DNA of 64,000 nt from Allobosea sp. 117 (lineage in GTDB: Bacteria; Pseudomonadota; Alphaproteobacteria; Rhizobiales; Xanthobacteraceae), in the NCBI RefSeq assembly GCF_000702305.1, contig NZ_JNLC01000012.1, positions 124,001 through 188,000 on the forward strand. Reading direction: 5' to 3'. Positions 1 to 56,571 of this stretch are shown here, piece after piece (positions within the stretch are counted from its first letter, which is position 1; every line of letters starts with the position of its first letter). The notes beneath the pieces are model-generated. The model saw only the letters and a list, made by a program, of their open reading frames with translations. It did no database searches and had not been told where the DNA came from. The translations under genes were made by a program, and so were the position numbers.

Positions 1-1578
1 ATCAACGCGCTGCAGAAGGCGTTCCTGGTGCGCTCCTGCACGGACAGCTTCTACGAAGCGCGCACCCGGCCTTGCCTGCTGTTCCAGATCAAGCGCTGCT
101 CCGGCCCCTGCACCGGCGAGATCTCGCACACCGACTACGCCGCCCTGGCGCAGGAGGCGCGCGACTTCCTCTCCGGCCGCAGCCGCGCGGTGAAGGAGCA
201 CATGGCGCGCGAGATGGAGGAGGCCGCCGAGACGCTGGAATTCGAACGCGCCGCCGCCCTGCGCGACCGTCTCGCCGCGCTCTCTGCCGTGCAGGGCACG
301 CAGGGCATCAACCCGCGCTCGGTCGAGGAGGCGGACGTCTTTGCCCTGCATCAGGAGGGCGGCGCGACCTGCGTGCAGGTGTTCTTCTTCCGCACCGGGC
401 AGAACTGGGGCAACCGCGCCTATTATCCGCGCGCCGACCGCGCGCTGGAGCCGGCCGAGGTGCTCTCCTCCTTCCTCGCCCAGTTCTACGAGGACAAGCC
501 CTGCCCGCGCCTGATCCTGCTCAGCCACGCGGTGGAGGATGCCGAGCTCCTGACCGAGGCGCTCTCCGCCCATGCCGGCCACCGCGTCGAGATCGCCGTG
601 CCGCAGCGGGGCGAGAAGCGCGAACTGGTCGAGCACGCCTTGCAGAACGCGCGCGAGGCGCTTGGCCGCAAGCTCGCCGAAAGCGCCAGCCAGGCCCGCC
701 TGCTGGATGAATTGGCCCGCGCCTTCGAGCTGCCGCGCCCGCCGCGCCGCATCGAGGTCTACGACAACAGCCACATCATGGGCACCAATGCCGTGGGCGG
801 CATGATCGTCGCGGGGCCCGAGGGCTTCGCCAAGAGCCAGTACCGCAAGTTCAACATCAAGTCGGCCGATCTCGCCCCCGGCGACGACTACGGCATGATG
901 CGCGAGGTTCTCCGCCGCCGCTTCTCGCGGCTGATGCGCGAGGCGCCGCGGGCCGACTCACCTCTCCCCGTCGTGGAGAGGTCGACGGCGCCGCCGTCGG
1001 GTGAGGGGGAAGCAACCTTGCTTGCCCCCGCCCCCTCACCCCACCCCTCTCTCCACCGGGGAGAGGGAGAGGAAGCGCGCAACGACGACACCGCCGAGGC
1101 CTTCCGCGAGACCCCCGAAGGCTGGCCCGACCTGGTGCTGATCGACGGCGGCGCCGGGCAGCTCAAGGCCGCCGCCGACACGCTCGCCGAGCTCGGCATC
1201 GCCGACGTGCCGCTCGTCGGCGTCGCCAAAGGGCCGGACCGCGACGCCGGCCGCGAGACCTTCTTCATGGCGGGACGCGCGCCGTTCCGGCTGGAGCCGC
1301 GCGACCCCGTGCTCTATTTCGTGCAACGCCTGCGCGACGAGGCGCACCGCTTCGCCATCGGCTCGCACCGCGCGCGGCGCAAGAAGGACATCGCGCAATC
1401 CGGCCTGCAGGAGATCGCCGGCATCGGCCCCACCCGCAAGCGCGCGCTGCTGCGCCATTTCGGGACGCTGAAGGCGATCGAGCGTGCCTCGCTCACCGAT
1501 CTCGAGGGCGCGCCCGGCATCAATGCTGCAACCGCACGCGCGGTCTACGACTTCTTCCATGCAAGGTCGGGCGGATGA
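1..1578 (+). CDS. uvrC: UvrABC excinuclease subunit C, 5' partial
   Basis: UvrC makes both incisions around a DNA lesion in nucleotide excision repair. The reading frame is open from the first base, so the N-terminal GIY-YIG nuclease domain lies mostly outside the window. Visible in order: the conserved region around '[15 protein letters not shown]'; a UVR motif that binds UvrB ('[12 protein letters not shown]'); the RNase H-like endonuclease core ('[17 protein letters not shown]', '[11 protein letters not shown]'); and C-terminal helix-hairpin-helix repeats ('[17 protein letters not shown]'). Between the two core blocks lies an in-frame, low-complexity insert of about 40 residues, encoded by a palindromic repeat (listed separately). 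pgsA, moaD and moaE follow on the same strand. The identity is certain; only the missing start limits the call. Confidence 0.97.
957..1075. repeat. Palindromic repeat element inside the uvrC reading frame
   Basis: The segment is a series of nested inverted repeats made of CCCTCACC/CTCTCCCC-type words. The arms CCTCTCC and GGAGAGG pair at 961-967 and 975-981, CTCACC pairs with GGTGAG at 957-962 and 1000-1005, CGACGGC pairs with GCCGTCG at 983-999, and a second hairpin spans about 1044-1072. It is read in frame and adds a Pro/Ser/Glu-rich stretch to UvrC in the loop just before the 'PDLVLIDGG' block. A related element lies at the 3' end of phnJ, so it is a dispersed family and not native coding sequence. 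The exact borders are estimates. Confidence 0.75.
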
Positions 1579-20095: not shown

Positions 20096-20233
20096 CTGGC
20101 GGGCGGCCGCGAGGCGCAGCTTGTGCGCAAGAGGTCCAGAGGCTAGATTGTAAGCAAGGGGTTGATCGCGATTACCCCGTGAGGCGGCAGCCCAAACATC
20201 GCGTCCATGTTCCCGATCAAGGGATGGACGCTC

Positions 20234-21052
20234 ATGCCATCGAACACCGAAATCACCGCATCCCAGCTCATGCGCCTCGTCGGCTTGCCCGGCGTACCGA
20301 CGATCATTGACGTCCGCACGCAGCAGGACGTCGACGCCGATCCGCGACTTCTGCCCGCCAGCCTGCGCCGCGACGCGCTGGGCGTCACCGCATGGGCGCA
20401 CGACTTCGCGGATCAGGCGGTCGTCGTGGTCTGCCAGCGCGGCCTGAAGCTCAGCCAGGCCGTCACCGCCTGGCTGCTCCACGAAGGCATCAGGGCGGAG
20501 ACCCTCGAAGGCGGGTTCGAAGCCTGGCGCGACGCCGGCGGGCCGCTCGTCTCCGCCAAGGCCCTGCCCCCGCGCGACGGCGCGGGCCGCACAATATGGG
20601 TGACGCGCGCCCGGCCCAAGGTCGATCGCATCGCCTGCCCATGGCTCATCCGTCGCTTCGTCGACCCGGACGCCGTTTTCCTCTTCGTCGCGGCGTCGGA
20701 AGTAGCGGCGGTCGCCGAGCGCTTCGGCGCCACGCCTTTCGACATCGACGGCGTGTTCTGGAGCCATCGCGGCGAGCGCTGCACCTTCGACACCATGATC
20801 GAGGAATTCGGCCTGTCCTGCGCGCCTCTGGACCGGCTGGCGATCATCGTGCGCGCCGCCGACACCGCGCGCCTCGACCTCGCGCCGCAGGCGGCGGGAT
20901 TCCTCGCCGCCTCGCTCGGCCTCTCGCGGATGTTCCGCGACGACCTCGAACAGCTCGAGGCCGGCATGCTGCTCTACGATGCGTTCTATCGCTGGTGCCG
21001 CGACGCGACCGAGGAGACCCACAACTGGCCATCCGGCCCGAAGCCGGCGTGA
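20234..21052 (+). CDS. Rhodanese-like/chromate resistance (ChrB C-terminal) fusion protein
   Basis: A 272-residue cytosolic protein. Residues 1-110 form a rhodanese-like domain ('IIDVRTQQDVDADPRLLPAS', in part; C67 in 'VVVCQRGLKLSQAV' is the expected active-site cysteine). Residues 120-270 match the chromate-resistance domain at the end of ChrB ('KVDRIACPWLIRRFVDPDA', 'GERCTFDTMIEEFGL'). chrA follows 11 bases later, so the two form a chromate module. The role is probably in sensing or handling chromate or sulfur; direct activity is not established. An in-frame ATG at 20207 is an alternative start. Confidence 0.88.
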   Translation: MPSNTEITASQLMRLVGLPGVPTIIDVRTQQDVDADPRLLPASLRRDALGVTAWAHDFADQAVVVVCQRGLKLSQAVTAWLLHEGIRAETLEGGFEAWRDAGGPLVSAKALPPRDGAGRTIWVTRARPKVDRIACPWLIRRFVDPDAVFLFVAASEVAAVAERFGATPFDIDGVFWSHRGERCTFDTMIEEFGLSCAPLDRLAIIVRAADTARLDLAPQAAGFLAASLGLSRMFRDDLEQLEAGMLLYDAFYRWCRDATEETHNWPSGPKPA

Positions 21053-55555: not shown

Positions 55556-56571
55556 GGCAATTTCTCCGCGCCGGAAGCCCCCTCGCCCGCCCCTACGGGG
55601 CGACCTCCTCCCCTCGGGGAGAGGTGAGGAGTGCCGCCTGCTACACCCTCTCCCCGAGGGGAAGAGGGTCGGGGTGAGGGGGAACCTCCCGCCACCCCCA
55701 TCTCGCCGACATGCCCCTCGGCCTGTCGGCCCTCGCAATGGTCGGTGTCGGAACACACGAACATCCGCCCGCCGCGATCGTCGAGGATCACCTCGTCGAG
55801 ATAGACGCCCTCGGCGCCGCACAGTGCGCAAGGCTTGTCGAAGCGCTGCACGCGGAACGGATGGTCGTCGAAATCGAGCGAGCGCACGCTTGTATAGGGC
55901 GGGATGGCATAGATGCGCTTCTCGCGCCCGGCGCCGAAAAGCTGCAGCGCCGGGCAGTCGTCCATCTTCGGGTTGTCGAATTTCGGGATCGGCGAGGGAT
56001 CCATCACATAGCGCCCGGCCACCTCGACCGGATAGGCGTAGGTGGTGGCGATGTGGCCGTGCCGGGCGATGTCCTCATAGAGCTTCACATGCATGAGGCC
56101 ATATTCGGCCAGCGCGTGCAGCGCGCGCGTCTCGGTCTCGCGCGGCTCAAGGAAGCGCAGCGGCTCCGGGATCGGCACCTGATAGACGAGGATCTGCTCC
56201 TCGGAGAGCGCCGTCTCCGGGATGCGATGGCGGGTCTGGATGATCGTGGCCTCGCGCGTCGCGGTAGTGGTCGCGACACCCGCCGTCTTCTCGAAGAAGC
56301 CGCGAATGGCGACGGCATTGGTGGTGTCGTCGGCGCCCTGGTCGATCACCTTCAGCACGTCATCGGGACCGAGCACGGCGGCGGTGACCTGCACGCCTCC
56401 CGTGCCCCAGCCATAGGGCATCGGCATCTCGCGCGCGGCGAACGGCACCTGATAGCCGGGAATGGCGATCGCCTTCAGGATCGCGCGGCGGATCATGCGT
56501 TTCGTCTGCTCGTCGAGATAGGCGAAGTTGTAGGTTATCGCCGGCATCGCGCCGGTCGGGGCGGCGCTCAT
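55552..56571 (-). CDS. phnJ: Alpha-D-ribose 1-methylphosphonate 5-phosphate C-P lyase
   Basis: The radical-SAM enzyme that breaks the C-P bond. The expected residues are all here: cluster cysteines C248, C251 and C273 ('CALC', then 22 residues on), the thiyl cysteine C279 six residues later ('SDTDHC'), and the glycine G39 in 'IPGYQVPFAAREMPMPYGWG' (in part). The 339 residues exceed the usual 280-300; the extra tail (from about 294) is Gly/Pro/Ser-rich and is encoded by a palindromic repeat, so the natural C-terminus was probably near residue 292. It overlaps phnI and phnK by four bases each. Confidence 0.97.
   Translation of the reverse strand: MSAAPTGAMPAITYNFAYLDEQTKRMIRRAILKAIAIPGYQVPFAAREMPMPYGWGTGGVQVTAAVLGPDDVLKVIDQGADDTTNAVAIRGFFEKTAGVATTTATREATIIQTRHRIPETALSEEQILVYQVPIPEPLRFLEPRETETRALHALAEYGLMHVKLYEDIARHGHIATTYAYPVEVAGRYVMDPSPIPKFDNPKMDDCPALQLFGAGREKRIYAIPPYTSVRSLDFDDHPFRVQRFDKPCALCGAEGVYLDEVILDDRGGRMFVCSDTDHCEGRQAEGHVGEMGVAGGSPSPRPSSPRGEGVAGGTPHLSPRGGGRPVGAGEGASGAEKLP
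55577..55690. repeat. Palindromic repeat element at the 3' end of phnJ
   Basis: Two adjacent imperfect hairpins of CCCTC/GAGGG words: CCCTCTCCCC with GGAAGAGGG (about 55647-55668) and CCTCCCCTCGGGG-type words with GAGAGGTGAGG on the other side. It is made of the same words as the element in uvrC (CCCTCACCCC, CTCTCCCC, GGGGAGAGG). It replaces or extends the C-terminal tail of PhnJ and supplies the sequence in front of the phnK start. Borders are estimates. Confidence 0.75.

Follow-up and report, generated by a model that had tools for sequence, protein, structure and literature searches.

A dispersed palindromic repeat read in frame within the UvrC loop of Ancylobacter, very probably tolerated as a disordered linker at a site that is repeatedly refilled

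The window analysed here, a 64-kb stretch (64,000 nucleotides) of contig C11 in an Ancylobacter-type genome of 4.6 Mb, opens inside uvrC, whose product scores above the cut-off of TIGR00194 and contains the PF08459 domain at residues 240-453 together with PF22920, HHH and UVR domains. In the RNase H half of this protein the reading frame passes through a palindromic element of about 110 nt (~37 codons, encoding residues ~320-357), which consists of two 9-bp hairpins flanking a spacer (Table 1). A first-pass annotation of the sequence had located a repeat of about 40 residues at 957-1075, and this was right; the profile gives 960-1069. Its description of nested hairpins in a uvrC gene with intact frame and flanks was likewise borne out by the inverted repeats, the open frame and the UvrC alignment, in which the conserved blocks on both sides of the insert are intact, D382 in the block that follows being, we assume, a catalytic residue. 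The presence of an in-frame palindromic repeat inside uvrC is confirmed. Codon shuffles of the window loop reached 2.6 bits at best in 100 trials compared with 53.9 bits for the real sequence, and the portion of uvrC lying 5' of the loop gave no match to the element profile. Elsewhere in the window, positions 20153-20236 (+) give a 67.9-bit match to chrB-a (RF03078), an established family of cis-regulatory RNA motifs.

Table 1. Coordinates of the features described in the text (window positions, except for the ligase loci)
Feature	Position	Strand	Evidence or remarks
uvrC	1..1578	+	open frame, read through the element; gene 5' end beyond the window
Dispersed palindromic element	960..1069	- (vs intergenic consensus)	profile match, 53.9 bits (L001:1511-1620)
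Outer hairpin 1, CCTCTCCCC-GTC-GTGGAGAGG	961..981	.	inverted-repeat search; one mismatch; pairs distally with 1046-1066 (81%)
Inner hairpin CGACGGCG/CGCCGTCG	983..999	.	inverted-repeat and pattern search
Nested stem GTCGGGTGAGGGGG / CCCCCTCACCCCAC around a small hairpin (1005-1015/1018-1028)	996..1044	.	inverted repeats, RNA fold
Outer hairpin 2, CCCTCTCTCC-ACC-GGGGAGAGGG	1045..1067	.	inverted-repeat search
Conserved block after the loop, residues 375-384	1123..1152	+	alignment; D382 invariant in 42 UvrCs
Second, partial element copy in the window	55646..55687	+	26.9 bits (L008:1501-1542); BLAST G000:C11:179646-179682; non-coding by classifier
Ligase loci	L255-L284		filled in G018, G013, G023, G004, G007, G010, G027, G024, G016, G021

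The element profile was built from 48 copies lying outside coding frames, and the consensus of that alignment reads CTCCCTCTCCCCGnCGGGGAGAGGGttGGGGTGAGGGG, about 20-25 variable bases, then CCCCTCACCGACCCGCttCGCGGGCCACCTCTCCCCGnCGGGGAGAGGGAA. Among 30 congeners, a perfect end hairpin occurs 0-171 times per genome (1134 in total), and the reversed control of the same hairpin was found 0 times in each. In the source genome, which has six perfect hairpins, BLAST at E<=0.001 places the element at eight sites including uvrC; by a home-made coding classifier, trained on the uvrC genes themselves, seven of the eight lie outside a coding frame and uvrC alone is coding on both sides. Across 58 loci, this classifier put 75 of 76 element rows outside a shared coding frame; a few of these rows are duplicates in which overlapping loci (such as L005/L007 and L179/L184) caught the same copy twice. 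A search of the whole genome, as the first-pass annotation had suggested, thus reveals a dispersed and mostly intergenic element; being palindromic, repeated in the genome and mostly intergenic, it is a REP in the broad sense. Order-wide, 32 of 121 genomes have the element, in a patchy distribution, and 40 plasmid records match it (32 from Azospirillum and six from Sphingobium), mostly at full length with 72-76% identity. At locus L319 (G030:C170), three elements stand in tandem at a spacing of 167-168 nt, non-coding by the classifier. At L220:1500-1610, a 140-aa frame runs across the element, and its two flanks score weakly positive for coding (4.5 and 4.1).

A UvrC protein search of 61 genomes gave a match in 60, and loops were scored for 37 of these (30 congeners and seven from outside the genus), further relatives being read by sequence or left uncut. 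The loop contains the element in 21 of the 30 congeners, with scores of 8.4-85.2 bits that each exceed those of the loop's own 100 codon shuffles, and by profile in none of the seven outgroups. Seven congeners (G005, G006, G009, G011, G014, G015 and G029) have no countable element and two, G008 and G023, have what look like short remnants of it; rows under 8 bits that beat their own shuffles (G008 at 4.6, G023 at 6.0, G011 at 0.6) were counted as unfilled. Cut in the same way, the loops measure 37-54 aa in the nine unfilled congeners and 48-169 aa in the 21 filled ones. From named genomes, 80 further UvrC loci provided 78 cut loops, of which three score above 8 bits: those of A. radicis and A. 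sonchi (already counted as G013 and G003) and that of Rhizobiales bacterium YIM 77505 (L081, 9.7 bits; 0/300 codon shuffles matched at E<=10). Occupancy in 21/30 congeners and 0/7 outgroups, together with the shuffle controls, identifies the segment as an insertion. It would have been an ordinary loop had close relatives all carried similar linkers devoid of the repeat words, which the 21 filled congeners contradict. In one Rhodoplanes genome, the UvrC loop (L083:3485-3680) contains a different genome-wide palindrome that scores 3.0 bits with the element profile, has a fold z of -5.1 and gives 110 BLAST matches in its own genome, arms being counted separately.

In the solved UvrC structures 3c65 and 2nrt, two residues separate the aligned blocks that flank the insertion site. 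Modelled by AlphaFold2 from 42 UvrCs (mean pLDDT 75), the protein of the window has a pLDDT below 50 at residues 321-366, and its confident flanks are a helix (296-314) and a strand (378-382). Sequence evolution in the loop is loose, with dN/dS of 0.28-0.88 compared with 0.04-0.19 in the core (ratios of computed values for 13 species pairs, of which G006/G009 is element-free and the plus/plus pairs perhaps do not go back to one insertion). According to the available text of PMC7835731, the UvrC domain that holds the loop makes the 5' incision. These data fit an insert that is tolerated as a predicted disordered linker in the 5'-incision domain.

The first-pass annotation had offered two options, a permissive loop or a mobile element that tends to land as whole codons. 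The modelled disorder, the loose evolution, the two residues in 3c65/2nrt and the variability among relatives speak for the former, whereas the latter is contradicted by the intergenic copies: the lengths of 71 distinct copies are evenly distributed modulo 3 (remainder 0/1/2 in 23/21/27), and the two element halves stand in no fixed phase to each other (19/20/11 among the 50 copies in which both marks were found). In-frame reading is therefore the survivor of selection and not the aim of the element. Such survival is helped because 3-4 of the six frames are stop-free in most copies; frame by frame, three are open in 59-63 of the 71 copies, one in 42 and two in 6-7. With three frames open in most copies, an open frame alone carries little information.

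In-frame copies were also found in the ATP-dependent DNA ligase TIGR04120 (cisplatin damage response), where 10 of 29 congeners are filled; a thirtieth loop, that of G017, could not be cut and was dropped. A short, empty 53-residue allele of the stretch occurs in 15 of the 29, including G014, the well-supported sister of the filled G018 in the uvrC tree, and the G016 ligase has three near-tandem copies of one element half. Codon shuffles for 16 ligase loops gave no matches. The ligase element is commoner in genomes with more hairpins (p 0.008, with kinship ignored and the copies themselves in the counts). In cobN, pairs of half-elements are in frame in G013, G018 and G022 (L308, L309, L323), in different reading frames; NCBIfam names the gene in G013 and G022, with scores under the cut-off that reflect its truncation at the locus edge, and the G018 case is based on one of two element rows and on likeness to G013. 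A glgX-malQ fusion in G020 (L202:1480-1603), also cut by the locus, has a minus-type element in frame. Many loci behind the cobN and glgX-malQ results were chosen for long open frames, and no rates can be derived from them. By being read in frame in unrelated open genes (uvrC, the TIGR04120 ligase, cobN and glgX-malQ), the element behaves like the Rickettsia palindromic elements (RPEs).

PF01797, the family of RAYT-type Y1 transposases, is absent from the 30 congeners, while the control search was positive in 5 of 14 named genomes; mobilisation by RAYT is accordingly rejected. Direct repeats of at least 5 nt, the target-site duplication expected of a MITE, adjoin 6 of 98 copies compared with 5.0 in shuffled pairings. 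With neither a RAYT-type gene nor a target duplication, we infer that copies arise when palindromes recombine with each other or a template switch occurs from one to another. A second palindrome family occupies hairpin tips of the element (CCCTCTCC-insert-GGAGAGG; L044, L041, L181, L187, L192, L195, L236). Composite copies with this palindrome at a hairpin tip are present in uvrC of G007 and G020, their frames open, and 14 of 69 BLAST rows from G007 start from element position 18 or stop at 96-97, beside the hairpin tips.

Turnover at the UvrC site was followed on a gene tree computed from the core of uvrC itself, which recombination within uvrC could distort. On it, orientation (6 minus, 12 plus) requires at least six changes, the maximum for six minority rows, element presence (21 vs 9) at least seven and presence in the ligase (10 vs 19) at least eight. 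Sisters of opposite orientation with starred support are G004/G016, G024/G003 and G001/G010; further such pairs are G026/G019 (support 95/65) and G007/G027 (83/53). The inner hairpin CGACGGCG/CGCCGTCG marks the minus-type uvrC allele and is also present in G024, G007, G001, G004 and G026. When 30 genomes were searched for this pattern (25 nt, up to three mismatches), 12 places were found, six in uvrC and six elsewhere. Those with 0-1 mismatch are in uvrC only (G007, G024 and G000); two mismatches separate the pattern from uvrC of G001 and G004 and from non-uvrC places in G016, G022 and G014, and three from uvrC of G026 and from non-uvrC places in G005, G020 (the glgX-malQ copy) and G004. Paired stem changes in five of the six non-uvrC places (the exception being G005) indicate that the inner hairpin is kept outside uvrC. 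The pattern points to, short of proof, one old minus insertion that may have survived here and there in the tree or moved from lineage to lineage. Plain inversion in place is unlikely for the minus type, as its inner hairpin is unlike that of plus copies.

Mean identity to intergenic copies is 88-91% for plus uvrC copies and 79-85% for minus ones, although the minus copies are another subtype, which lowers their identity to a mostly plus-type intergenic set. The plus copies may thus be younger, and plus probably replaced minus at uvrC. Local gene conversion left no clear trace, since the uvrC copies are not clearly nearer to copies of their own genome (based on 11 loops, for 10 of which the same genome supplied one or more copies). 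An empty counterpart was sought in G004 for five intergenic sites of its sister G016; the four that could be assessed are all occupied in the same orientation, unlike uvrC, and yielded no insertion boundary. The uvrC element score rises with the hairpin count of the genome (Spearman 0.52, p 0.003, with kinship ignored and uvrC hairpins counted in), and the contrast of filled uvrC genes with the rest runs the same way (p 0.03, again ignoring kinship and with uvrC copies included).

We consider it highly probable that a REP/RPE-like Ancylobacter palindrome was inserted in the UvrC loop, is tolerated there as a disordered linker and has refilled the site repeatedly. The element would insert in the loop joining a helix to the strand PDLVLIDGG of the 5'-nuclease domain and be translated as a disordered linker rich in Pro, Ser, Gly and Glu, which the enzyme presumably tolerates. 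It would spread chiefly between genes, with genic copies lasting only where the loop is flexible and the frame is kept and free of stops; the surviving genic sites would be the UvrC loop, the DNA ligase, CobN and GlgX-MalQ. The UvrC site would have gone through repeated rounds of filling, erosion and replacement, in both orientations and to a greater extent in copy-rich genomes, with copies probably made through recombination or template switching. A more daring version, which we regard as doubtful, is that the UvrC loop is a standing cassette, whose resident hairpins serve as homology or target so that the insert is exchanged, flipped and nested between sisters faster than intergenic copies. 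If true, repeat DNA, including the second palindrome family at hairpin tips, would be rewriting a protein linker.

It is improbable that the in-frame repeat is retained for changing UvrC or ligase activity, for example in more mutable lineages, as Di Nocera et al. speculated of repair-gene REPs. Two of the four host genes encode DNA damage enzymes and the published survey also includes many repair genes (PMC3733652, available text), but no role in repair is known for cobN or glgX-malQ, and a set of four genes is too small to test for enrichment. The element is present in uvrC of 9 of the 10 species with a ligase element, as it is anyway in 21/30 overall, and both the loose evolution of the loop and the frequent flips in its presence argue against a retained function.

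Very unlikely, too, is that the hairpin acts as RNA or DNA inside uvrC (translation pause, mRNA stability, cruciform) with the peptide as a by-product. The predicted RNA fold reaches -81.4 kcal/mol where shuffles average -59.8 (z -5.3; 0/200 shuffles equal it), the window loop has a z of -4.5 against codon shuffles, and hairpins of dispersed copies show paired variants. However, the uvrC copies do not all fold this well, z against codon shuffles ranging from -6.8 to +1.0 among congener loops, and 9/30 congeners are without the element or have a remnant only. Fold z alone is a poor detector of the insert: values of -3 or less occur in 1/78 loops and 1/78 control windows of the named genomes and in 11/37 of the other set, two of these being element-free (outgroup G032, z -4.0; congener G015, z -3.4). 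These folds, and the long element-free loops of the outgroups G049 (79 aa) and G032 (67 aa), indicate that linkers can also become long or structured by other routes. A last alternative, a low-complexity linker of ordinary origin whose Pro/Ser/Glu composition makes it look like the repeat, might draw on high GC, similar residues in element-free loops and the two long outgroup loops. It is refuted by the codon-shuffle control and is further opposed by the two-hairpin architecture and by the 21/30 versus 0/7 distribution, leaving it next to no probability.

Prior listings of in-frame repeats in repair genes come from scattered genomes and leave chance and selection as rival accounts. The natural alleles of 30 related species of Ancylobacter, which we take to be free-living bacteria, make tolerance, turnover and any effect on repair testable. 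An inserted repeat of this kind offers a route by which noncoding repeats turn into protein linkers, and accounts for odd PSP/GEG-rich inserts that are otherwise mistaken for lineage-specific protein sequence.

The nearest published counterparts are the intragenic REPs of the GTAG and CGTC superfamilies, described in the available text of PMC3733652 as dispersed palindromes that are mostly intergenic, often dimers and in some cases within ORFs. The repair genes that bear them include uvrA, uvrB, recBCD and those for DNA polymerase I and a DNA ligase, and two Xanthomonas recB genes have REPs at about the same site; Di Nocera et al. discuss flexible loops and mutator effects for such copies (PMC3733652). 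CGTC REPs are common in alphaproteobacteria and apparently have no dedicated transposase (PMC3733652). These REPs and the Ancylobacter element are alike in being mostly intergenic palindromes with some copies in repair-gene ORFs. Compared with the CGTC description in the same text (a terminal tag, 8-9 bp stems, A/T at positions 1-2, loops of 4-5), the consensus does not fit, although tags vary (CCTC is allowed); the Ancylobacter stem CCTCTCCCC/GGGGAGAGG, with a loop mostly of 3 nt, is without A/T pairs at positions 1-2. No GTAG tag was seen in the consensus, and Xanthobacter and Starkeya are unnamed in the main text of PMC3733652. A further difference from the REPs described there is that one UvrC loop is occupied in 21/30 species, in either orientation.

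The likeness to RPEs and to the Wolbachia elements is one of behaviour. RPEs are palindromes of ~100-150 bp, likewise from an alphaproteobacterium, that interrupt genes of unrelated kinds in frame; in the available text of PMC10969869 they lie in ORFs in nearly half of cases, compared with one of eight places for the Ancylobacter element in the source genome. The Wolbachia palindromic-like elements in addA, addB and priA are in frame and, with one exception, stop-free (PMC4224334, available text); they too are in-frame palindromes of recombination genes, and differ in genes and host. A literature search found no paper on an in-frame palindromic insertion in UvrC, nor did one on Ancylobacter palindromic repeats, judged by title and the start of the abstract, find any on the UvrC insert. 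The Ancylobacter case belongs with the known in-frame palindromes, namely RPEs, the Wolbachia elements and repair-gene REPs. The reuse of a single UvrC site is unusually frequent, and what is new here is a genus-wide series for one UvrC and one ligase loop, with states that range from filled through flipped, nested and decayed to empty.
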